A DNA stretch of 64,000 bases, taken from positions 1 through 64,000 of the forward strand of contig JARBTX010000004.1 in the NCBI GenBank assembly GCA_029239975.1, given 5' to 3'. Under the pieces are notes generated by a model. That model saw nothing but the letters and a program-made list of their open reading frames with translations. It did not search any database and had not been told where the DNA came from. This DNA is from Anaerocolumna sp. GTDB taxonomy: Bacteria; Bacillota; Clostridia; Lachnospirales; Lachnospiraceae. This document shows, piece after piece, positions 4,550 to 61,042 of this stretch. Numbering within the stretch: position 1 is the stretch's first letter; each line of letters opens with the position of its first letter. A program made the translations under genes and the position numbers.

Positions 4550-4624
4550 CTAAAAATCTCCTTTCATGTAACATAATATATTTTTGACGTTTACGAAACT
4601 ATAAAGTTTATCAAATTGATTATA

Positions 4625-5107
4625 CAACATATACGAATTTTCTAGCTTCAGATGCTCAAACCGGCAAGATTCAGCTAGAAACAAGTATATATTGTATAAG
4701 CAATAAGTACATCTATGATGTTTCGCAATAAAAACATAATACATTTGACAATTATGAAACGATAAAGATATTACAAATAACCTTTACCGTTTTATAATAG
4801 CCAAAGTTTTATATCATACTCAAAGACTAGGTTTTATATATCGTGCAGTTAATATAATTTTCAAGCTAAATCTTGCCCGTAGGGCAACTGAAGCTTGAAA
4901 ATTCATATTAACCGTATGATATATTCAATAAACTACATTGTTTCACAATAACCAAACATTACATGGCACTTGTGAAATTCAAAGACTTGGTTTTATATAT
5001 CATGCAGTTAATATAATTTTCAAGCTGAATCTTGCCCGTAGGGCAACTGAAGCTTGAAAATTCATATTAACTACATGATATATTCAATAAACTACATTAT
5101 TTCACAA
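4625..5107. repeat. Three copies of a large palindromic repeat between oppB-like and oppA-like genes (two direct copies, period 159 bp, plus one degenerate inverted copy)
   Basis: Copies at ~4821-4948 and ~4980-5107 near-identical; core cttgcccgtagggcaactgaagct; 4644-4676 agcttcag..ggcaagattcagct is the reverse-complement form. Confidence 0.9.
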
Positions 5108-5123
5108 TTGCCAACCAACACCT

Positions 5124-14970: not shown

Positions 14971-15083
14971 ACTCCATTCTGTCTGCTTTAGCAGACATTT
15001 AAATCAAGATCTGTGAAATTACTTTTTCACAATACTCCATTCTGTCTGCTTTAGCAGACACTTAAATCAAGATCTGAGAAATT
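14971..15083 (-). repeat. Two tandem ~63-bp intercistronic hairpin+SD repeat units (second truncated at upstream stop codon)
   Basis: actccattctgtctgctttagcagacatttaaatcaagatctgtgaaattactttttcacaat followed by near-identical second unit. Confidence 0.9.
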
Positions 15084-17315
15084 CTACTGTATTTCATTAA
15101 CTATGAATGACATGGTAGGAATTATGGTATCACCAAGTTCATAATCCTCGTTTGAATAGTTTATGATAATCTGAACTCCATTCTCATAGACAACGGATAC
15201 AACATTATTATCAACATAGTTATGAGACTGAATTGAAACCCCTTCTACCAAACGAAGAACATCTCCAATCTCCGTATAATACTTTATAATCGTACCTTTT
15301 AAAACATCATACTCTGAGGTATAAATATAAGATGAATTTGTATTTCTTAAAAGATTCGGTGACTCTTCAGTTAATATAAAACTTGGGTAAGCACCATACT
15401 CTATCATTTTCAAGAAAAATTGTTTCTCATTTGCCTCAAAATTGCTATAGGAAGCCCAGTAAGGAATATAACCTTTTAATACCATTGGTATAAAGGGAAC
15501 TTCTTCACTAAGGTAACTATAATTAGAAGTTGATAAAGGCATATCAAAATATTTATTTGCATATTCCCATGTATAATCGGCTGGTTGCTCTAAGGAGAGG
15601 TTTACAGTATCAAATGTTTCCAAGGTTTCAAGCATTTTACTTGCCGTATCCCCTCTAGAGTAGATATCACCACCGGAGTAATAAGAAAACAGTGTATTTG
15701 ATACCTTTGATAAAGCAACATTCTTCACTACAGTATCTTCATATCTTTTCATAAATCTTTTTGCAAACTCAAACGATCTTGATGGTGTAAGATAATACAT
15801 ACTATCAAAAACCCAAGCATTTGTTGGTTCTTCTACTATGATTTGATTAATTCCTTTTACGATATCGGATGATGTATTATAAAATCTTTTCGGATTTGCC
15901 CACAACAGATCTTGATTAAGCACTAAGTCAATATCTTGTTTATTAAGTTTTTCTATTAGCGCAAATAGTTCTCTTTGACTTCCAAGTTTTCTCTCAACTT
16001 TAAAGTTACCACTTCCATAGTTTAGCGATACACCTTTTGTTTGCCACCCAGTATAAACCGGAAGTATATCCTTAACGTCATCTTTGGTTAAATCAGTAAT
16101 AATAGAATCCATTTGACCTACTGTTGTCATAGGGACAACAACATCAAATATAAACCACTTTTTCGAATCTGCACCAAAGAAATCTAATTTTACTTCAAAT
16201 TTATCTTCTTGTTTTTGTAAATCACCTTTACCAATAAGATAATCTTGATAGGTTTTAGCTAATCCTGTATAATTTGCTGCATCACCTGATACAAATTGAT
16301 AACGTATACCAATGTCTCTTATGTAAGGTGTTTTTTCAAAGGTTGGTACACCCGACGACTCCGCTGTTTGCATAGTATAGATTTCTCTAAAATTAAATTT
16401 AGCTGATAACCAGTTATATTCAGTTGTCACGCCATTCGGGTATGCTAAAATTTCCGCATTGTATTGTCCATCTGTAACAATTCCAAGAAACCCTTGTGCC
16501 TTTTTGGTGTAAACCATTCCAAATACAGGTACTGTTATTTTCTCTGGTTCTGTTACCGCTGGTCGGTAGGATTCGCTAACTTGAAATTTATCAATTCCAA
16601 CATTAGCTCCATATATCTTTTTAATATAAGGAGTTTTAAATTTACCGTGGTTATCTTTTAAATCAATTAATGCACCTGCACCTTCTGGCACAAACATATA
16701 TCCAGCTTCCGAGTCCTTACTTGTTGCGCCAAACATAGGATAAAGATAAATGGAACCAAGTTTATAGGTTTCCCCTTCTTTCATGCTATCTTTTTTTACG
16801 TTGGCAGTCATACCACTTTCTTGTAACCTTACTTCTAAACACATACTAAATTCATAATTCTTGTAATTAAGTGTTACATCAAAACCATCTTTATAAAAGA
16901 GAAATGTTTTCTCTGGATTACCTTTTAATAAATCAACACGTTCTGGCATAGTGGAACGCTGACTATAAAACTCAACTGAAACTCCAGAATTTAAAAATCC
17001 TTTCCAGGATTCATTAGAACTCTCGTCCTGTTTTGTTGACTCATATATGAAACCTGTTTTTTTATCCTTAATTTCAACCCCAAGAGTTGTTTCGTCCAGA
17101 TACATTATGTATTCGTCATTTTCAAACGTTACATTTCCTTCACTATTTCTAATTGCAGCTTGGGGGTCTATCACTGGATTATTCGTATCTGCACTCTCAA
17201 AAGTGATTAAACGATCTGATTTATTCGCTAAAACCATAACACTTATGCTAGTAAGTAATGTAATCGTAAGAATACCTGTTACAATCCCTAGGACTATACG
17301 TTTTCTATTTGCCAC
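15084..17315 (-). CDS. DUF5696-like membrane-anchored extracytoplasmic protein
   Basis: N-terminal TM then ~700 aa extracellular region; YIMYLDETTLGVEIKDKKTGFIYES, GYMFVPEGAGALIDL. GTG start at 17315 with SD aaggagg. Confidence 0.7.
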   Translation of the reverse strand: MANRKRIVLGIVTGILTITLLTSISVMVLANKSDRLITFESADTNNPVIDPQAAIRNSEGNVTFENDEYIMYLDETTLGVEIKDKKTGFIYESTKQDESSNESWKGFLNSGVSVEFYSQRSTMPERVDLLKGNPEKTFLFYKDGFDVTLNYKNYEFSMCLEVRLQESGMTANVKKDSMKEGETYKLGSIYLYPMFGATSKDSEAGYMFVPEGAGALIDLKDNHGKFKTPYIKKIYGANVGIDKFQVSESYRPAVTEPEKITVPVFGMVYTKKAQGFLGIVTDGQYNAEILAYPNGVTTEYNWLSAKFNFREIYTMQTAESSGVPTFEKTPYIRDIGIRYQFVSGDAANYTGLAKTYQDYLIGKGDLQKQEDKFEVKLDFFGADSKKWFIFDVVVPMTTVGQMDSIITDLTKDDVKDILPVYTGWQTKGVSLNYGSGNFKVERKLGSQRELFALIEKLNKQDIDLVLNQDLLWANPKRFYNTSSDIVKGINQIIVEEPTNAWVFDSMYYLTPSRSFEFAKRFMKRYEDTVVKNVALSKVSNTLFSYYSGGDIYSRGDTASKMLETLETFDTVNLSLEQPADYTWEYANKYFDMPLSTSNYSYLSEEVPFIPMVLKGYIPYWASYSNFEANEKQFFLKMIEYGAYPSFILTEESPNLLRNTNSSYIYTSEYDVLKGTIIKYYTEIGDVLRLVEGVSIQSHNYVDNNVVSVVYENGVQIIINYSNEDYELGDTIIPTMSFIVNEIQ

Positions 17316-19359: not shown

Positions 19360-20247
19360 CTAATCGTCCTTAAATATTTTCCTTGAAACCTTAGAAATAC
19401 TATATATGATGACCAAAAGTACTAACGATACTGCGGAAGCATATCCCATTTCATACCTTATAAACCCGTAATCTTCTATGTGATTAACCATAAGTTGTCC
19501 AGCATAATTTGGTGTTGGGTTACTACCACTTAATTGAACTCCGATTGCACCAACTGAAAATGTATTGACTACAGCCATAACTGCTGCGAATAACATCTGG
19601 GGTTTCATCATTGGTATGGTGATATAAAACATTTCCTGAAATCTGTTACGTAATCCATCAATGGATGCAGCTTCATAAACTTGTGTATCTATATTTAAAA
19701 TACCTGCAAGTATGGCTAAAAAACCAACACCCATACTACTCCATAATGATACAACTATCATGATAAGAAGTAGGTATTTTCCATCTGTTAAAAAGAGTAG
19801 TGGATCATTAATTATCCCCATATCCATAAGTAGATAATTAATATATCCCATCTGATCTCCAGCAAAAATGATTTTCCAAACTACAGCCATTGCTACACCG
19901 GATGTTAAGGAAGGAGAATATATTAATAATGCCAATATCGTTCTTGGTATCTTATCAATTTGTGCTAACATCCATGCCAATAGAAAGGATAGAGCATATC
20001 CTACTGGCCCAACTATCAATGCAAATATACATGTATTAGGTAAGACTTTCTGCATAAAAACATCATCTTGGGTTAGTAAGTTTATGTAATTTAACAGTCC
20101 AATAAATTTAGGTGTTTGTACTGCATCGTAATTAGTAAAACCTAATATAATAGCTGCTCCAATTGGTATTACTATAAAAACTAGGAACAATAGGAGATAT
20201 GGTAGCAAAAAATAATAAGCTACATTTATTTTAAATTTGTTTTTCAT
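19360..20247 (-). CDS. Sugar ABC transporter permease (UgpA-like)
   Basis: [33 protein letters not shown] motif; start at 20247 preferred because gggag at 20252-20256 is the SD. Confidence 0.92.
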
Positions 20248-20251
20248 TGCA

Positions 20252-20306
20252 ACTCCCATCAGCCTCTTTTAGGCGATTCAATCAATAAGTTGAAACTAGG
20301 GTTCAA
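20252..20306 (-). repeat. Third, diverged copy of the hairpin-TTGATT-hairpin-SD intercistronic element
   Basis: Minus strand: GTTGAACCCTAGTTTCAACTTATTGATTGAATCGCCTAAAAGAGGCTGATGGGAGT, ending in the SD of the downstream permease. Confidence 0.7.
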
Positions 20307-23185
20307 CGCAACCAATCTTTTATCATATTAATATCAGGTATTATAAGTTCTTTTACTGTGTTACCTTTACTATCAATATAACCGAACTCTTCTAACTTCC
20401 GCCCAAGTTCTCGATTAATTTTTTTCTCGGCATCATCTACAGCACTTCTAATATTGACATTTTGGGTAACCACTTTAATTAGTATGTTTCCTAATTCACG
20501 TTCGATAATATAACTACCCGGAACTTTAGGTGCTTCATATGTCCACTCTATTTGTTTCATAATAATTTCTTTATGTTTTGTACTCCATGGAGAAGCCATA
20601 ATAGCATCAAGATTGGCAGAATTCCATAAGTACTCATTTCCAAGTGTTGATTGTAGCGTATAAGCAAATTCAGTTTGAACTTCGGTTGATGTCCACCAAT
20701 CAAGGAATTTCCAAGCTGCTTCACTTTTATTACTAGAACTAAACACGACACAACTCTCCGCTGCACCAGATGTATATCTTAGAACCTCTCCATCTTGATT
20801 TTTAATTCCTGGATATGGAGCAATTGCCCAAGAGTCAGCAAGTTCTGGCGCTGCATTGATTAATAAATTAAAAGTGCCATAGTCTGAAGTACCAATTGGC
20901 ATACGTCCATCTCGAAATGCTTGATAAAAGCTGAGTACTTCATAGTCCATATCATAAATGGTAAAATTCTCTGTTAAGGTTTTTAACCCTTCAATTACTT
21001 CAGGGGAATCTAAATTTGCTCTTGTTTCACCACTTTTTATTAACTCACCACCACTTTGAAATATAAAAGGAGTTGTTGTATTAAAGTTTTTAACAAGGAA
21101 ATTCGATACATGGGTATTAAAACTTAAACCACGCCTAGCTAATTCTGGTAACATCTCTCTTACTTCATCCATGGTGTCAGGAACTTCTAACCCAATTGCA
21201 TCCATAATATCTGTACGATAGAATAAAACATAAAAATTAAATGTTTCAGGTATTGCATAAACACCATCATCACAAACACCTGGTATGAGCATACCCGGGG
21301 CAAACCGATTACCTATTGCCTTAAAGGTATCAAATTCACGCATATTGGCCAAAGCGCCTCTTAGGGCTAAGTCATATACATAACCTGAACTAATTCCAAT
21401 TGCTGCATCTGGAGCTTTTCCTGAAGCATTGGCTAGAATTAACTTTTGTTGATCTGGAACAATGGATAAATTAACATTAATTCCATATTCCTTTGTGAAA
21501 TCGGAATCAGCCATTCTCTGCATGATTTCAAGATATTGTCTTGGACGTGCAACCCAGATTTGTAAAGTTTCACTTTCTGCATCATAATCTGGTGCATAGT
21601 CTTGCTTGGAAAAGGATGCAAAAAAGTGCTTAACATTTAATGACAATCCTTTAAAGAATCCTGTTTTATCTGGTAATTTTGCATCATCTTGATAAAACAA
21701 AATTTTATCAAGTCCTAATTGACTCACACTTATATTTTCAATTACATTGTTTATATTCTGTCTAACCGAACTGGTTCCATAGGAAAATTGATTCAGCTTT
21801 TGTGGTAACTCATTTGGTTTTTCAGCTAAACGTCTAAGTCCTGTAGATGCCACCTTTAACTGTGCTATTTCACCAATATTTTTTTCACCTGCGTTTAATG
21901 TGGCAAGTGCTCCATATACTAAATCTACACTGCCTGCCCATCTAAGAAGTTTTTCATCAATTTCAAATCCATAGTCTTCTAATTTAAAATCTCTGTATTT
22001 ATCTGTATTACCACCAGTTATCTTATTAATAGATAATGCCAAATCATTAATCTCAGCATTTATTTTATTTAAAATTTTAATACTATTTCTCATGTAATCT
22101 AGCGAAATTTCAACGGTAAGTAAATGAGTACCTTTTGTCAGATAAACCGGCGTTTTCGCCACTGTACGGTCAAATTTTTTGGAGTAAGGAAACTCCATGT
22201 TTTGATAAGATTCTGAAGGAATTTCACCATCAATATAGATATTACGATAAACCGAAAAATTAGCTTTTGTACTTTGTCTATAATCAAAGCCTAGATTATA
22301 AAATCCATCTTCTAGCACTTCAAACTCATATTCTATTTTAGTACCACCAGTCTTAAAGGAAGCCTCAGAAATCATGTTTAACGTTTTTTTCTTTGGATCA
22401 TATGGAGTAATATCCGTATTAAACTCTGCTTCTGCACGAATATTAGGAGAATTTCTATAGGTTACATTCTCGGCTTCTATCACAATCAACTCGTCTCCAA
22501 TAGCTTTCTCTGCAATATCCTTAGAAATGGTTGCTTCTTCCGATAAATATAGGTTTCCTAATTGTATAGAACCTTCATTTGCTTTAAAGACTAGTGTATT
22601 TACACCTTTATCTAAATAAATTAGCATAGGTTTACTAAATAAAAAGGCGGTATCGTGTAAGTAAGATGTTTTCCATACCTTTTCTTTTATGGGCATTGCA
22701 ATACATTCATTACCATATCGATCATACTGAACTTCACCCGAGACCCACGTATCACTTACGAATAATCTTTTTAACTCATCGTATGGATATTCACCATTGA
22801 CTTTAAGTGACATATTAGTCGGTAAAATATTATCACCCAATGTCTTATAGTCAAAACCAAATACATAAGCTGCTGCTTCTTTCACTTCAACAGTTAACTT
22901 AATTTCCCTACCTTCTTGAAGAATTAAGTCCTCTGAACTTAAATCTTTCGCTAAATAGGTAATCGTATCACCAGAATATATAGTATCTTTATATTTATTA
23001 AGATATTTTTGATAATCTGTATCTGGCACATTTCCAGCAGATAAATAAGCATCATAAAGTTCATCTAATGTCGTTACATTTGCTGCCATAGTCATCCTCA
23101 GCCCATTACTACCGGAGAACATATTGGTTTGAAATATCAAAGTTATTATTAATATTAGTAAAGCCAGTTTTTTTAATTTCCTCAT
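20303..23185 (-). CDS. Large extracellular protein: N-terminal carbohydrate-binding-like modules fused to a SBP_bac_1-type solute-binding domain
   Basis: Signal-like MRKLKKLALLILIITLIFQTN without a lipobox Cys; C-terminal half WVARPRQYLEIMQRMADSDFTKEYGINVNLSIVPDQQKL...; start 23185 after SD. Confidence 0.8.
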   Translation of the reverse strand: MRKLKKLALLILIITLIFQTNMFSGSNGLRMTMAANVTTLDELYDAYLSAGNVPDTDYQKYLNKYKDTIYSGDTITYLAKDLSSEDLILQEGREIKLTVEVKEAAAYVFGFDYKTLGDNILPTNMSLKVNGEYPYDELKRLFVSDTWVSGEVQYDRYGNECIAMPIKEKVWKTSYLHDTAFLFSKPMLIYLDKGVNTLVFKANEGSIQLGNLYLSEEATISKDIAEKAIGDELIVIEAENVTYRNSPNIRAEAEFNTDITPYDPKKKTLNMISEASFKTGGTKIEYEFEVLEDGFYNLGFDYRQSTKANFSVYRNIYIDGEIPSESYQNMEFPYSKKFDRTVAKTPVYLTKGTHLLTVEISLDYMRNSIKILNKINAEINDLALSINKITGGNTDKYRDFKLEDYGFEIDEKLLRWAGSVDLVYGALATLNAGEKNIGEIAQLKVASTGLRRLAEKPNELPQKLNQFSYGTSSVRQNINNVIENISVSQLGLDKILFYQDDAKLPDKTGFFKGLSLNVKHFFASFSKQDYAPDYDAESETLQIWVARPRQYLEIMQRMADSDFTKEYGINVNLSIVPDQQKLILANASGKAPDAAIGISSGYVYDLALRGALANMREFDTFKAIGNRFAPGMLIPGVCDDGVYAIPETFNFYVLFYRTDIMDAIGLEVPDTMDEVREMLPELARRGLSFNTHVSNFLVKNFNTTTPFIFQSGGELIKSGETRANLDSPEVIEGLKTLTENFTIYDMDYEVLSFYQAFRDGRMPIGTSDYGTFNLLINAAPELADSWAIAPYPGIKNQDGEVLRYTSGAAESCVVFSSSNKSEAAWKFLDWWTSTEVQTEFAYTLQSTLGNEYLWNSANLDAIMASPWSTKHKEIIMKQIEWTYEAPKVPGSYIIERELGNILIKVVTQNVNIRSAVDDAEKKINRELGRKLEEFGYIDSKGNTVKELIIPDINMIKDWLR

Positions 23186-23211
23186 TTTTCCTCTATCTCC
23201 TTCACAAAACA

Positions 23212-25437
23212 TCAATCATAATAAACAGAGAAATTATCAAATCCAAAGCCTTCACCCGTAGCACTAAGTCCTATTTTTCCGAACATAAATGCGGCAGGAT
23301 CGACATAAGTAATAACTAGTTGATTATTTAAAAATACATTTATAGTAGAATCTTTTACATGAATCTTCAATTCTAGCTTTGTTGATATCTTATCTTGAAT
23401 AGAATAAAACGCTAGATGTTCTTCTCCATACTGCACGCGGTATAAGTGAATACCCTCATAAGAAACTTTGATACAGTAACCAAATAAGGATTCTTTAACT
23501 TGAGCAGGAAACCAGGATTCTTTTGTTGCACGTACATAGATAGATACATCGCCAGTCGGTTTATGATTCCGATTAATAGATGCCACTATATTATAATCAC
23601 TTAAACCATCTTCTCCAATAAAAGCCATTCCTAAATTCTCAGCACAGGTAAACCCAGAATATTTATGTATCATGCTTTTTGATCCTTTATGACCAATCAC
23701 TTTTAACTGATCTGTTACCAAGTTTCCGTCTTTAATTACAGTCAGAGCATGTAATGAAGAATGTTCAACAAACTCAAAATAATCAATTGTTATATCACTA
23801 TTCTCTGACATAAATATAATACAATCTAAATCCTGTGTAATTACTAAGGTTCCAAGTGAGATGATTTCATATCCTTCTTCATCCTTTACGCCAGAAAGTA
23901 TTCCATCTAATGTGATTACTGTTTCATTTACGACTGCTTTTATACTAATTCGATCCCTTGACCCTAAAACTCTAGCTATTACCTTATAATATCCAGTCTT
24001 TTTCACATTTACTTTATAGGTATATCTCTGATCCTTTTTATAGACAGCACTGTAAATTTCCATTCCTGCATCAGTAAAGGCACGAGTCTCAATTTCTTCT
24101 TCACAATGTACTGCATCAAATCTACCAGGAATAGCTTTCTTTGCATATTTATCTTCATTTCCATCAACACTTACGGAATAACCAATAAATCCAATTTCTT
24201 GATTTGAAGTTTCTTGTATTCCTATATAACCACTCGTTAACTTACTTTTGTAAGTGCAAAGAAACATATTATTGATAAAAACATCAACATAGGAATCAGA
24301 TTTTTTTACAAATCGTAGTGTAACAATAGCATGCCTACTAACTGCATGGTTTATAGCTCCAGTTTTCAAAAGACATCCATCTTCTTTAATCTCATATGTT
24401 AAATCAGTTTTTAACAAAACCGTGCCATATCGGTTATCCTTATAACCATAAAGGAAACAGATATCTTCTCCTTTTGCATTAACATTAATCTCAGCTGTAA
24501 AAAATTCTTTGGTTTCCATTGGTGTAATGAAGTAATTTGTTTGCTCTACCATACACAAGTTAAGCTTTTCATTGCCTCTACAACAAAATTCTGGCATTTT
24601 ATGAGCATCTTGTTCCCACCAAATAGGATTACAATACATTCTAGCTCCATTAAAAAATAACCGATCAATGTTTGCACTTCTTTTTCGTGGATTGCTATCC
24701 AAATCAAAATTATGATACGCGATACAATAACTATCTAAATCAGGTGCTAAAAAACTAGAGCTATGACCAAGACCATGAAATTCTGGTCCTGTTTCTAAAA
24801 GTAATGTCTGATTCTTTAGGTTAACATAACCACTTGTTGGACTCGTCTTTGAAACACTATATGCAACCCGGTATCCTTTACTATGTAAGTGGTTACCTGT
24901 GTAGGTTAGATAATAATAACCATTTCTCTTAATAATCATGGGACCTTCTGTCCAGTAATTTAAATAACTTTCTGGGATTAACATTCCATTTACATCAATC
25001 TCATCAGGGGACGGCATAATATGAATGATAATTCCATTATGTCCAGCTCGTAACATGTATTGTTTCCCATCATCATCAATGTAAAAACTACCGTCAATTA
25101 ATAACCCATAGTTATCGCTGATCAGATGAAACGGTCCAGTAGGTTTATCAGATTTAAGCAGATAATGACCACTTCCAACCGGTGATGTAATCATATAAAA
25201 ATTCCCATTATAGTAACAAACCTCTGGTGCATACGCTCCAAAAATTTCTGCCTCGTCACACACGCTGCCTACATAATCAAAGTCAATTAGATTTTCAGAA
25301 ACCCAACACTTTATATGGTCCCCTGCACTAGAACAGTATAAATAGTAGAACCCATTAAATCGCATAATAAATGGGTCGCCAAACTCATTTTCAGACCATT
25401 GATTTTTAAGAGCAAATGGATTTTTATATGTTTTCAT
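23212..25437 (-). CDS. Glycoside hydrolase family 43-like protein with C-terminal beta-sandwich modules
   Basis: FGDPFIMRFNGFYYLYCSS, IFGAYAPEVCYYNGNFYMITSP, YWTEGPMIIKRNGYYYLTYTGNH five-blade propeller motifs; no signal peptide. Confidence 0.8.
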   Translation of the reverse strand: MKTYKNPFALKNQWSENEFGDPFIMRFNGFYYLYCSSAGDHIKCWVSENLIDFDYVGSVCDEAEIFGAYAPEVCYYNGNFYMITSPVGSGHYLLKSDKPTGPFHLISDNYGLLIDGSFYIDDDGKQYMLRAGHNGIIIHIMPSPDEIDVNGMLIPESYLNYWTEGPMIIKRNGYYYLTYTGNHLHSKGYRVAYSVSKTSPTSGYVNLKNQTLLLETGPEFHGLGHSSSFLAPDLDSYCIAYHNFDLDSNPRKRSANIDRLFFNGARMYCNPIWWEQDAHKMPEFCCRGNEKLNLCMVEQTNYFITPMETKEFFTAEINVNAKGEDICFLYGYKDNRYGTVLLKTDLTYEIKEDGCLLKTGAINHAVSRHAIVTLRFVKKSDSYVDVFINNMFLCTYKSKLTSGYIGIQETSNQEIGFIGYSVSVDGNEDKYAKKAIPGRFDAVHCEEEIETRAFTDAGMEIYSAVYKKDQRYTYKVNVKKTGYYKVIARVLGSRDRISIKAVVNETVITLDGILSGVKDEEGYEIISLGTLVITQDLDCIIFMSENSDITIDYFEFVEHSSLHALTVIKDGNLVTDQLKVIGHKGSKSMIHKYSGFTCAENLGMAFIGEDGLSDYNIVASINRNHKPTGDVSIYVRATKESWFPAQVKESLFGYCIKVSYEGIHLYRVQYGEEHLAFYSIQDKISTKLELKIHVKDSTINVFLNNQLVITYVDPAAFMFGKIGLSATGEGFGFDNFSVYYD

Positions 25438-41968: not shown

Positions 41969-42895
41969 TTATTTTACTACCACACCACCTAATATACAGG
42001 TGCCATTTATAAAAACAGTATAACTACCAGTACCATTATCATACGGTGGAATCGCCTTATTGTCCACGCCGCCAAGGATTGGAGTGCAATTTACCATTAC
42101 TCTTACATTAGCTGGTACAAAAATATCGATTCCGCCAAGGATACATGTAGTATCGATAACAGCATCACCATTAAAGATAGCTTTTCTCAAATCCAATTGC
42201 ATATTTCCTAAAATCGAGCTGATCACTGCACCAGTAAAAACCTCATCAGAATACTGTACATTTCTTCCACCTAAAATAGAAGAAAAATGATTATTTCCAC
42301 CATGGTTTGTACTACCTGCAGAAGTATGATAATTACCAGAATAATAATTATTTGAATTATAATTATTTGTATCATTATTATCTGTGCTGTTATTATTTGT
42401 GTTATAATTATTGGTTTCGTTGTTATTTGTATTATAATTGTTCGTATTATAACTGTTTGTATCGTTGTCATTTGTATTATAATTGTTCGTATTATAACTA
42501 TTTGTATCGTTATTATTTGTATTATAATTATTCGAGTTACTATTCGATGAATCAGAATTTTGGTACTTGTTGTAATCTTTTCTTGATCCTCTTGTAATAA
42601 TTGAATATCCTAAGACTATAAATAGTAACGCTATAAAAAGTCTTGAGAACATGTACCAATGAAAGATACCTTGAGCCGATAACAATAATAAAATACCAAC
42701 ACCAAGTCCTATCAAACTTGCAGAACGATTTCTCTTTTCTGATAATCCAATGATACATGGTATAATTATAAATAATGTCCACCAACCACTAAAAAAGATA
42801 TTAAACTCTATTATTCCAAAAGCTTTTCCAGCAAAGAATAAACCTAGTAAAACAAAAATTGAACCCCATGTAGCTCTGGCCACTGTATTTTTCAT
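41969..42895 (-). CDS. LiaF-like/cell wall-active antibiotic response membrane protein with Asn/Thr/Tyr-rich linker
   Basis: N-terminal TMs (IFVLLGLFFAGKAFGI), C-terminal ILGGIDIFVPANVRVMVNCTPILGGVDNK motif. Confidence 0.8.
   Translation of the reverse strand: MKNTVARATWGSIFVLLGLFFAGKAFGIIEFNIFFSGWWTLFIIIPCIIGLSEKRNRSASLIGLGVGILLLLSAQGIFHWYMFSRLFIALLFIVLGYSIITRGSRKDYNKYQNSDSSNSNSNNYNTNNNDTNSYNTNNYNTNDNDTNSYNTNNYNTNNNETNNYNTNNNSTDNNDTNNYNSNNYYSGNYHTSAGSTNHGGNNHFSSILGGRNVQYSDEVFTGAVISSILGNMQLDLRKAIFNGDAVIDTTCILGGIDIFVPANVRVMVNCTPILGGVDNKAIPPYDNGTGSYTVFINGTCILGGVVVK
42340..42540 (-). repeat. Low-complexity tandem repeat encoding (NTNNNDTNSYNTNNY)n
   Basis: Repeated attattgtattataattgttcgtattataac units within the LiaF-like CDS. 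Confidence 0.85.
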
Positions 42896-43016
42896 AAGAT
42901 AACCCCCATCTAGGATAAAATCGTAAAACAATATTGTTTTACAAAACTATTTAAATACATCAATTACTATACTACATACTATCATAAATGTAAAAAGTAT
43001 TTTTTTCAAGAGTAGA

Positions 43017-46804: not shown

Positions 46805-48661
46805 TTAATTAGTCTGGTTTGTCTCTTTATTGTATCCAGCAATTAAATCCTGTTCTAGTATCTCTTTCGATAATCGCTTTAGCATAATAGCACGATTGTA
46901 GTCATCTTCATATTTAGAAGCATCCAGCGGCTTATTCGTATCAATTTCCCAAGCTCTACTACCATCAAAAACACCCTCTCTTGATATTTCAAACATAGCA
47001 TTATTAGATACAAATGATCCTTCAAATAAATATGCAGTAAAAGCAACAAAACCATCTTTTGCATTTACTAAATCTTGTCCTAAAATATATGGTTGTTCTA
47101 AGTCTATATTCATAATATTTGCTATGGTCGGAAGAAAATCAACCTGACCACCTGTTGTTGAAATAGTTTCATTAACACCACTGTTAGGAATATGAATCAA
47201 TAAAGGTACATTTAACATTTCATCATAATCATAAGGTCTACCTAAGTATTCTCCCATTATCTCCTGATTATTATCCATTCCACTATTTAAACCATGATGG
47301 TCACCATAAAACACAAGTATGGAATTATCATATAAACCTTCTGCTTTTAATTGCTTAATAAATTGTCCTATCGCTTCATCTGTATATCGAACCGTTTGCA
47401 AATAAGAACCAAACTTCGTTTCTTTATGTTCTTCTTTTAAAGATAAAGTTGCATCTTTTGGATCTAGCAAAAATGGATGATGATTCGTTAGAGTAACAAT
47501 AAAGCTAAAGAATGGTCCATCTTCTTTCTTTAAAATATCAATCGCTTGTTTAAACATAGATTTGTCTGAGATACCCAACCCTATTGTTTCCGACATGTCT
47601 AGATCTTCCATACTATAAAATTCTCTAAAGCCCTGACCAGGATAAGCTACTTCTCTGTTCCAAAAATCACCTTTATAACCATGTATGGCAAAAGCATCGT
47701 ACCCTTTATCTCTTAGAAGCCAAGGAAGCCCCTTAAATGTATTATTAACATATAACGTATAGCATTCACGATCAATTACAGGATAAAGACTATTTAAGGT
47801 AGAAAATTCTGCGTCTACCGTATTTCCTTTACCAATATTGGAATAATAGTGATCAAAATATAAGGTATCTTTTTGTAAAAGTGAATTTAGATTAGGTGTA
47901 ATTTCTTGTCCATTGTAATTTGCATTTAGTACGAAATTTTGAAGTGCTTCTACCTGAACAAGAATTAGATTTTTACCTTCACCTATACCATGTAATCGAT
48001 TTCCAATCGGTTTATTTTTTACTTCTTCCATGTTTTTTAACACATCTTCCACCGACATTTTTTCTATATTAATATTATCTGTAATGGCAGTATATATGTC
48101 ATTTACATGATTTGAAAAAAATTCAACACTGTTTACTTTTTCTATAGCAACACTGTTGATTGGATTTACTACCAACCAGACAAACATTACACATAGACCT
48201 GCTAAAAAATACTTTAATTCTTTTTTAAAACTCCAGCTGTTCTTTTCTTTATTTTCAACCGTATGTTTTTTAAAATAGTAATGCATAAATGGAATGTCTG
48301 CAAACAATAAAAAACTTGCTGGAATTAATGTAGCGATAAAACTACTTGGTACAGCAGCTACATTTGCCGCCTGCCATAATTGTTTAATAGAAACAGTTTG
48401 ATTGTAGTAATTATAATACATTGCATCTGCAAACATTAAAAGGCTTAATAAGCTATATACAACTAAGAAAATTGCTTTTTTTCTCTTTAATCTACATCTA
48501 CTGAAACTTAGAAAAATCGCTCCCATAGCCAAGGTGCTAACAATTATTAGTGTTATATCATTAATGCTTACTCCAATCAATCCATAATACACCACTAGTT
48601 TGAAAGCAACTAGCAATATAATCATATATGGAGATTGTAATATCATCTTTATTTGTTTCAT
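46805..48661 (-). CDS. LTA synthase family protein (sulfatase domain)
   Basis: N-terminal TMs; VQVEALQNFVLNANYNGQEITPNLN, YYSNIGKGNTVDAEFSTLNSLYP, VFYGDHHGLN. Confidence 0.92.
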   Translation of the reverse strand: MKQIKMILQSPYMIILLVAFKLVVYYGLIGVSINDITLIIVSTLAMGAIFLSFSRCRLKRKKAIFLVVYSLLSLLMFADAMYYNYYNQTVSIKQLWQAANVAAVPSSFIATLIPASFLLFADIPFMHYYFKKHTVENKEKNSWSFKKELKYFLAGLCVMFVWLVVNPINSVAIEKVNSVEFFSNHVNDIYTAITDNINIEKMSVEDVLKNMEEVKNKPIGNRLHGIGEGKNLILVQVEALQNFVLNANYNGQEITPNLNSLLQKDTLYFDHYYSNIGKGNTVDAEFSTLNSLYPVIDRECYTLYVNNTFKGLPWLLRDKGYDAFAIHGYKGDFWNREVAYPGQGFREFYSMEDLDMSETIGLGISDKSMFKQAIDILKKEDGPFFSFIVTLTNHHPFLLDPKDATLSLKEEHKETKFGSYLQTVRYTDEAIGQFIKQLKAEGLYDNSILVFYGDHHGLNSGMDNNQEIMGEYLGRPYDYDEMLNVPLLIHIPNSGVNETISTTGGQVDFLPTIANIMNIDLEQPYILGQDLVNAKDGFVAFTAYLFEGSFVSNNAMFEISREGVFDGSRAWEIDTNKPLDASKYEDDYNRAIMLKRLSKEILEQDLIAGYNKETNQTN

Positions 48662-48840: not shown

Positions 48841-49066
48841 AAAACTTTACTATGTAAAACCGCTCCTTGCTGTTTATTTCTAACTGCATTTTGATGTTCT
48901 TAAATTAAAAATTTAATAATGATACTGCTCCTTGTCTTTTGTTTTCTAACAGTATTTTGATGTTCTTAAATTATAAATTTTACTATGTAATACTGCTCTT
49001 TATCTTTTGATTTCTAACAGTATTTTGATGTGCTTAAATAATTTTACAATATAAAAGCTCCCTATC
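48841..49066. repeat. Degenerate ~65-bp tandem repeat, three copies and a partial fourth
   Basis: tactatgtaataCtGCTCcttgtcttttgttttctaacagtattttgatgttcttaaatta repeated with gctc at 48862, 48927, 48995, 49057. Confidence 0.8.
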
Positions 49067-60890: not shown

Positions 60891-61042
60891 ACTCCCGTCT
60901 GCCTGCTTTGCAGGCATTAAAATCAAGACTGTGAAGTACTTTTCTTCACATACTCCCGTCCGCCTGCGTTAGCAGGCATTTAAATCAAGACTGTGAAGTA
61001 CTTTTCTTCACATTATCCCAGTCTGCCTGAGTAAGCAGGCTC
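60891..61042 (-). repeat. Tandem ~61-63-bp hairpin+SD repeats (two full units and a partial third) between lon and engB
   Basis: Units at 60891-60951, 60952-61014, 61015-61042; actcccgtctgcctgctttgcaggcattaaaatcaagactgtgaagtacttttcttcacat. Confidence 0.92.

Follow-up and report, generated by a model that had tools for sequence, protein, structure and literature searches.

The permease junction and element C

The DNA analysed here, referred to as the window, is a 64,000-nt stretch of an Anaerocolumna sp. contig (Lachnospiraceae; GenBank assembly GCA_029239975.1, contig JARBTX010000004.1, positions 1 to 64,000). On its minus strand, an ORF for a solute-binding protein is followed by the gene of an ABC sugar-transporter permease, and a short structured unit, element C, occupies the junction between them (Table 1). 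Read along the minus strand from 20307 to 20245, the junction consists of hairpin 1, the linker UUAUUGAUUGAAUC, hairpin 2, the segment UGAUGGGAGU, UGCA and AUG. This is the layout given in the initial annotation, provided that it is read from the minus strand; only the edge of hairpin 1 had to be moved, from 20306 to 20307. The element lies on the sense strand of the permease gene, with 4 nt separating its end from the ATG at 20247, and hairpin 1 indeed holds the UGA stop codon (20305–20303) of the upstream ORF, as had been noticed earlier.

Table 1. Coordinates of element C, the flanking genes and the other copies in the window
Feature	Position	Strand	Description
Element C	20252–20307	minus	Single unit: hairpin 1, UGAUU linker, hairpin 2, GGGAGU
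Element C hairpin 1	20289–20307	minus	GUUGAA CCCUAGU UUCAAC (sequence and fold); stem equals family consensus
Element C linker	20275–20288	minus	UUAUUGAUUGAAUC, 14 nt, with near-invariant UGAU
Element C hairpin 2	20262–20274	minus	GCCU AAAAG AGGC, 4 bp (sequence and fold)
Element C Shine-Dalgarno segment	20252–20261	minus	UGAUGGGAGU; contained AUG (at 20259) is in frame but a false start
ABC sugar-transporter permease	19360–20247	minus	BPD_transp_1; true start ATG 20247 by ortholog comparison
Upstream solute-binding-protein ORF	20303–23215	minus	SBP_bac_8/SBP_bac_1 in C-terminal half
Locus A unit 1	60891–60950	minus	Directly before ysxC/engB (YsxC) start (60886); R2 70.6 bits
Locus A unit 2	60952–61012	minus	R2 71.7 bits
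Locus A remnant	61015–61040	minus	Hairpin 2 (GCCUGC..CAGGC) and GACUGGGAU, 2 nt past lon stop (sequence); weak R1 match, 12.2 bits
Locus B unit 1	14971–15031	minus	Before start (14967) of second permease; R2 64.5 bits
Locus B unit 2	15034–15097	minus	Degraded hairpin 1 with upstream UAG stop (15086–15084); R2 49.2 bits

The start of the permease was resolved by comparison with its ortholog in a close relative (genome G009), which is 86% identical and has no element; there, the permease ATG overlaps the stop codon of the upstream solute-binding protein (GAATGGTTAAAATGAAG). The permease N-termini align at a matching methionine (MKKKSRIN against MKNKFKIN), and the tails of the solute-binding proteins also match (..KDWLR followed by the stop in the window, ..EEWLK followed by the stop in G009). 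The window junction is about 60 nt longer, and the extra stretch runs from the stop codon to ATG 20247. Since the ortholog without the element has its start overlapping the upstream stop, the element fills the stop-to-start gap. The earlier proposal that the permease starts at 20247 rather than at 20259 is therefore supported, the ATG at 20259 being part of the family motif GAUGGGAG. Such an in-frame AUG, 12 nt before the real start, is present in 31 of 130 arrays of the family, so that gene callers would pick a start four residues early, and the motif accounts for these misannotations. With both flanking genes intact, the junction is filled in the window genome (G000) and empty in G009; a contrast between two species would fit gain or loss alike. 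Junctions that are filled in one species and empty in another provide natural test pairs.

Two further loci in the window carry the element. Locus A, between lon and ysxC/engB, consists of two units plus a remnant, and locus B precedes a second permease gene. The genome is copy-poor, with seven units at E ≤ 0.05, five of them in the window. At some unit junctions, the sequence SD-AUG-UGA places a stop codon right behind a start codon (about 60945–60956 in the window; also L100, L107 and L178). This start-stop mini-ORF (GGGAGU AUG UGA) was rejected as a family feature, as it is confined to locus A and a few arrays (3 of 77 junctions in a scripted count that overlooks junctions with ATG directly after a unit).

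Membership of element C in the family

Two covariance models were used, both trained with element C left out, and the E-values of both are rough. R1 was trained on three units of the two other window loci, whereas R2 was trained on 123 units, all from other genomes. In the R1 search of the window, run with all filters off, element C scored 26.6 bits (E = 0.0014) and ranked fifth behind four units of loci A and B, the next match reaching 17.9 bits. In the R2 search, it scored 28.0 bits (E = 1.1e-4) against 19.9 bits for the next match, with a whole-genome E-value of about 0.008. Because these scores exceed the background, element C is a member of the family, though a weak one. The initial annotation had called it a third, diverged copy and had named a model built from the other two loci as the check; both models bear this out. 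Its remark that the stem sequence differs holds in that the copy is diverged, yet hairpin 1 of element C is nearer to the family consensus than those of loci A and B, the commonest hairpin 1 in other genomes being exactly GUUGAA..UUCAAC.

The hairpins, the UGAU linker and GGGAGU are all present in the family order. However, all other copies in the window are stronger than element C, whose hairpin 2 is shortened from 6 to 4 bp and whose helix between linker and Shine-Dalgarno (SD) sequence contains one mismatch. Its folding energy does not differ significantly from that of shuffled sequence (z = −0.57; other copies, −3.2 to −4.8). Folding energy was thus dropped as evidence for element C; stability above that of shuffled sequence is a trait of strong copies without being part of the model's definition. 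A search of the genome with exact sequence patterns missed element C. The case for this copy rests on sequence, layout and position, not on stability.

Anatomy and covariation of the family

The anatomy of the family was derived from 207 units in 130 arrays. The consensus reads GUUGAAAAA..UUUUUCAAC, aUCYUGAUUU, GYGUGC UAAA GCACRC, AGAYGGGAGU, 3–5 nt and AUG, which corresponds to a GUUGAA..UUCAAC hairpin, a linker, a GC-rich hairpin, an SD segment and the start codon. In 177 of the 207 units, UGAU occupies its expected position, the GG of the SD sequence is near-invariant, and GGAG is retained in 90% of last units and 91% of internal units.

Both stems covary strongly, with standard pairs in 95% of the alignment cells and changes on both sides at 12 of 13 pairs. 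The covariation scores are 0.33/0.64, compared with 0.12/0.20 for shuffled and at most 0.10 for slid alignments; although the alignments had been made to fit the structure of the model, compensation can also be read directly from the raw sequences, e.g., in hairpin 2 as GUGUGC/GCACAC, GCGUGC/GCACGC, GUGCGC/GCGCAC, GCCUGC/GCAGGC and GUCUGC/GCAGAC.

A third pairing is possible between UCYUG of the linker and YGGGA of the SD segment. Of the UGAU-anchored units, 94% allow at least four of its five pairs, the figure for slid registers being 11% at most. Where positions of this helix vary, the changes mostly stay within pairing classes; the linker and SD sequence are too invariant to show true compensatory changes. 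However, the predicted accessibility of GGAG is 0.31 with real linkers and 0.31 with shuffled linkers (p = 0.95). Since shuffled linkers give the same accessibility, the energetics lend no support to masking of the SD sequence by the linker, and this masking was abandoned as a firm claim.

Distribution and novelty

R1 matches 13 of the 14 other genomes of the same genus, with many tandem arrays, and R2 yields at least 629 matches in 15 Anaerocolumna genomes, with the highest count in G008 (at least 140, among 150 candidates scored). A strict consensus match was found in records of Anaerocolumna, Clostridium sp. KNHs205, L. phytofermentans and another Lachnospiraceae bacterium. A sample of Lachnospiraceae contained the element in 21 of 397 genomes and 19 of 334 genera, often with 13 or more copies, whereas in a search of 391 genomes of the class, a single one beyond Lachnospiraceae, an incomplete assembly, gave a match at 1e-5.

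At the gathering cut-off, Rfam 15 gave no matches in the window or in 20 strong loci, and the matches that appear at permissive E-values (T-box, microRNA, RAGATH) were rejected, as their scores are far under the cut-offs. No description of the element was found in the open-licence literature, and a prior account may exist elsewhere; the C. phytofermentans TSS paper (PMC5171806) does not contain the words 'repeat', 'hairpin' or 'Shine'. The element is a Lachnospiraceae-specific, previously uncatalogued family of structured RNA units.

Other repeated or start-adjacent elements were observed during the same analysis. An element resembling an H-type pseudoknot (GAGUGAAAGAA..UGCCACA..UUCUUUCGCUC..UGUGGCA, then a hairpin and GCGAUGGGU) lies within the last 120 nt or so upstream of the gene start at L223 (G005), L240 (G012), L241 (G014) and L243 (G011), where it precedes two unrelated genes, DUF188 and hemC. 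Upstream of a DUF188 gene in G009 (L228), a tandem array follows the plan of hairpin 1, UGAUU, hairpin 2 and SD, with a different hairpin 2 (AAUAUCCAAUCG..) and SD sequence (AAAGGGGU), and is probably a subfamily. The window itself also contains three units in tandem, each about 67 nt long (48856–49042; ACAAGGAGCAGUAU-type on the minus strand, with AUACUG/CAGUAU arms) upstream of the gene at 46805–48661, two 139-nt copies that are 93% identical, 159 nt apart and each a long palindrome (4820–5117, in the intergenic region 4550–5123), and fourteen 15-nt in-register repeats (42296–42580) within the ORF at 41969–42931.

Position relative to genes

At loci that were chosen by the model and not by position, the array ends 2–7 nt before an ATG in 98 of 130 arrays, compared with 2.6% of random positions in the same loci. 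This adjacency holds for 71 of 87 arrays in the genus plus one outlier genome and for 27 of 43 in other genera; several of the remaining arrays are followed by a GTG or TTG start or by an undetected unit.

The genes behind the element are functionally diverse and include ysxC/engB, hemC and those of recG-type helicases, response regulators and ABC transporters. A set of 67 downstream proteins matches 103 Pfam families, the commonest of which occurs in only four. A pathway-specific riboswitch was rejected because the downstream genes are unrelated, and the gene content suggests no common regulator or ligand. Since the element precedes such diverse genes, any factor common to them would affect a large part of the cell.

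An upstream sense ORF is present for 105 arrays; in 24 of these, the upstream stop codon lies within −4 to +6 of hairpin 1, and in seven of the 24 it is a UGA at the same place as at element C. Where the stop does fall in hairpin 1, as at element C, the unit would constitute the entire intercistronic spacer. Of 85 element genes, 60 have a co-directional upstream neighbour and 25 do not; of 176 other genes, 108 have one. The role in translational coupling suggested in the initial annotation is hypothetical: most arrays have no upstream stop at hairpin 1, and those 25 genes have no such neighbour to be coupled to. As co-directional neighbours are not clearly enriched, a strictly intercistronic element was rejected as a general rule.

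Proposed role and alternatives

Element C is tentatively regarded as a diverged member of a set of Lachnospiraceae-specific structured units that may serve as ribosome-binding-site cassettes, a reading given just short of an even chance. Judged from sequence and position, the most likely role is that of a structured cassette governing translation. The unit would act in the RNA and set the rate at which translation of the gene behind it starts; hairpin 2 may insulate the SD sequence from upstream RNA, UCYUG of the linker may pair with YGGGA and reversibly mask it, and a protein, a ligand or temperature may shift the balance between the masked and open states. Control of translation initiation is favoured because the SD sequence is welded to hairpin 2 and to the start codon, with or without an upstream gene. 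The occurrence of the element both between genes and without a co-directional neighbour is more readily reconciled with translation control than with intercistronic processing. A CsrA-type site was rejected, as the GGA lies outside any hairpin loop.

In a bolder and more doubtful extension, the unit would be a portable initiation cassette in front of at least 100 unrelated genes per genome, gained and lost exactly between stop and start codons, and would define a global post-transcriptional regulon in Lachnospiraceae that answers to one trans-acting factor, whether protein, ligand or nuclease, with other folds at the same position in sister species. Whatever its mechanism, a strongly covarying RNA family that adjoins start codons, reaches about 140 detected copies in one genome and is missing from Rfam would add a layer of gene control, hitherto undescribed, to bacteria that include gut inhabitants and biomass degraders.

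The main rival, though rather unlikely, is an mRNA-processing site, at which RNase Y or a similar endonuclease would cut UG^AUUU between the hairpins. Hairpin 1 would then shield the upstream 3′ end and hairpin 2 the new 5′ end directly before the SD sequence, so that neighbouring cistrons would differ in mRNA stability. UGAUU is the most conserved unpaired motif and lies in an AU-rich linker with a stable hairpin 3′ of it, the RNase Y gene is present in 13 of 15 genomes of the genus, and in about a quarter of cases a stop codon at hairpin 1 is combined with the SD sequence after hairpin 2. The published preference of RNase Y is for GA in an unpaired, AU-rich stretch that is followed by structure (PMC11780869), and UGAU(U) 5′ of hairpin 2 fits this description. 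However, 63% of the RNase Y sites in B. subtilis lack the GA motif (PMC11780869), and the GA match is therefore weak evidence. In addition, processing would not need the strict fusion to the SD sequence and start codon, and co-directional upstream genes are not clearly enriched.

It is less probable still that the element is a selfish or drifting REP/MITE-like DNA unit, which would spread and expand in tandem and be tolerated because it brings its own SD sequence and stop codon. The many copies, the tandem arrays with array-specific spacers, the varying unit number at orthologous loci (one at L092 against three at L102, two at L095 against three at L101) and the presence or absence between close species, including the filled and empty pair at the element C junction, are consistent with such a unit. 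However, the element nearly always lies in sense orientation with constant spacing to the start codon, and the stems differ among loci of one genome yet stay paired, which points to selection on structure. Repeat-like spread may explain the growth of the family even if the element is functional.

A chance look-alike, i.e., a genuine family with element C being two short hairpins beside a good SD sequence, would fit its low thermodynamic z, its modest genome-wide E-value and a 28.2-bit match in the same genome (L148) that does not adjoin any start, but is the least probable reading, given the right strand, the exact hairpin 1 stem, the 14-nt linker with UGAU, the perfect GAUGGGAGU, the 4-nt distance to the true start and the precise stop-to-start fit relative to G009. 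Furthermore, four of five other matches at 20–31 bits in the genome (L147, L150, L151 and L152) end 4–5 nt before an ATG, suggesting that even matches in that score range are mostly real.

Comparison with known systems

SD-masking leaders, riboswitches and RNA thermometers (Rfam Cis-reg) resemble the element in their covarying stems next to the SD sequence and in a possible anti-SD strand. Unlike them, the element has no Rfam match, occurs in tandem units and precedes genes that share no pathway, and it is built of two simple hairpins rather than a conserved multi-stem ligand-binding core. The best, weak Rfam match at locus A is the T-box leader (RF00230), with 20.3 bits against a cut-off of 93.

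Dispersed structured repeats such as REP/BIME, ERIC and the pneumococcal BOX are short palindromic units present in many copies, with tandem arrays and differences between species, all of which they share with the element. In contrast to these repeats, the element occurs almost solely on the sense strand, 3–5 nt from the start codon, carries its own SD sequence and has stems that diverge with compensation.

RNase Y sites such as cggR-gapA of Bacillus (PMC11780869) are alike in the GA dinucleotide, the AU-rich unpaired linker, the downstream hairpin and a possible location between cistrons. However, cleavage of the present element is putative, and, unlike such sites, it forms a repeated family with a conserved layout fused to the SD sequence and the start codon.
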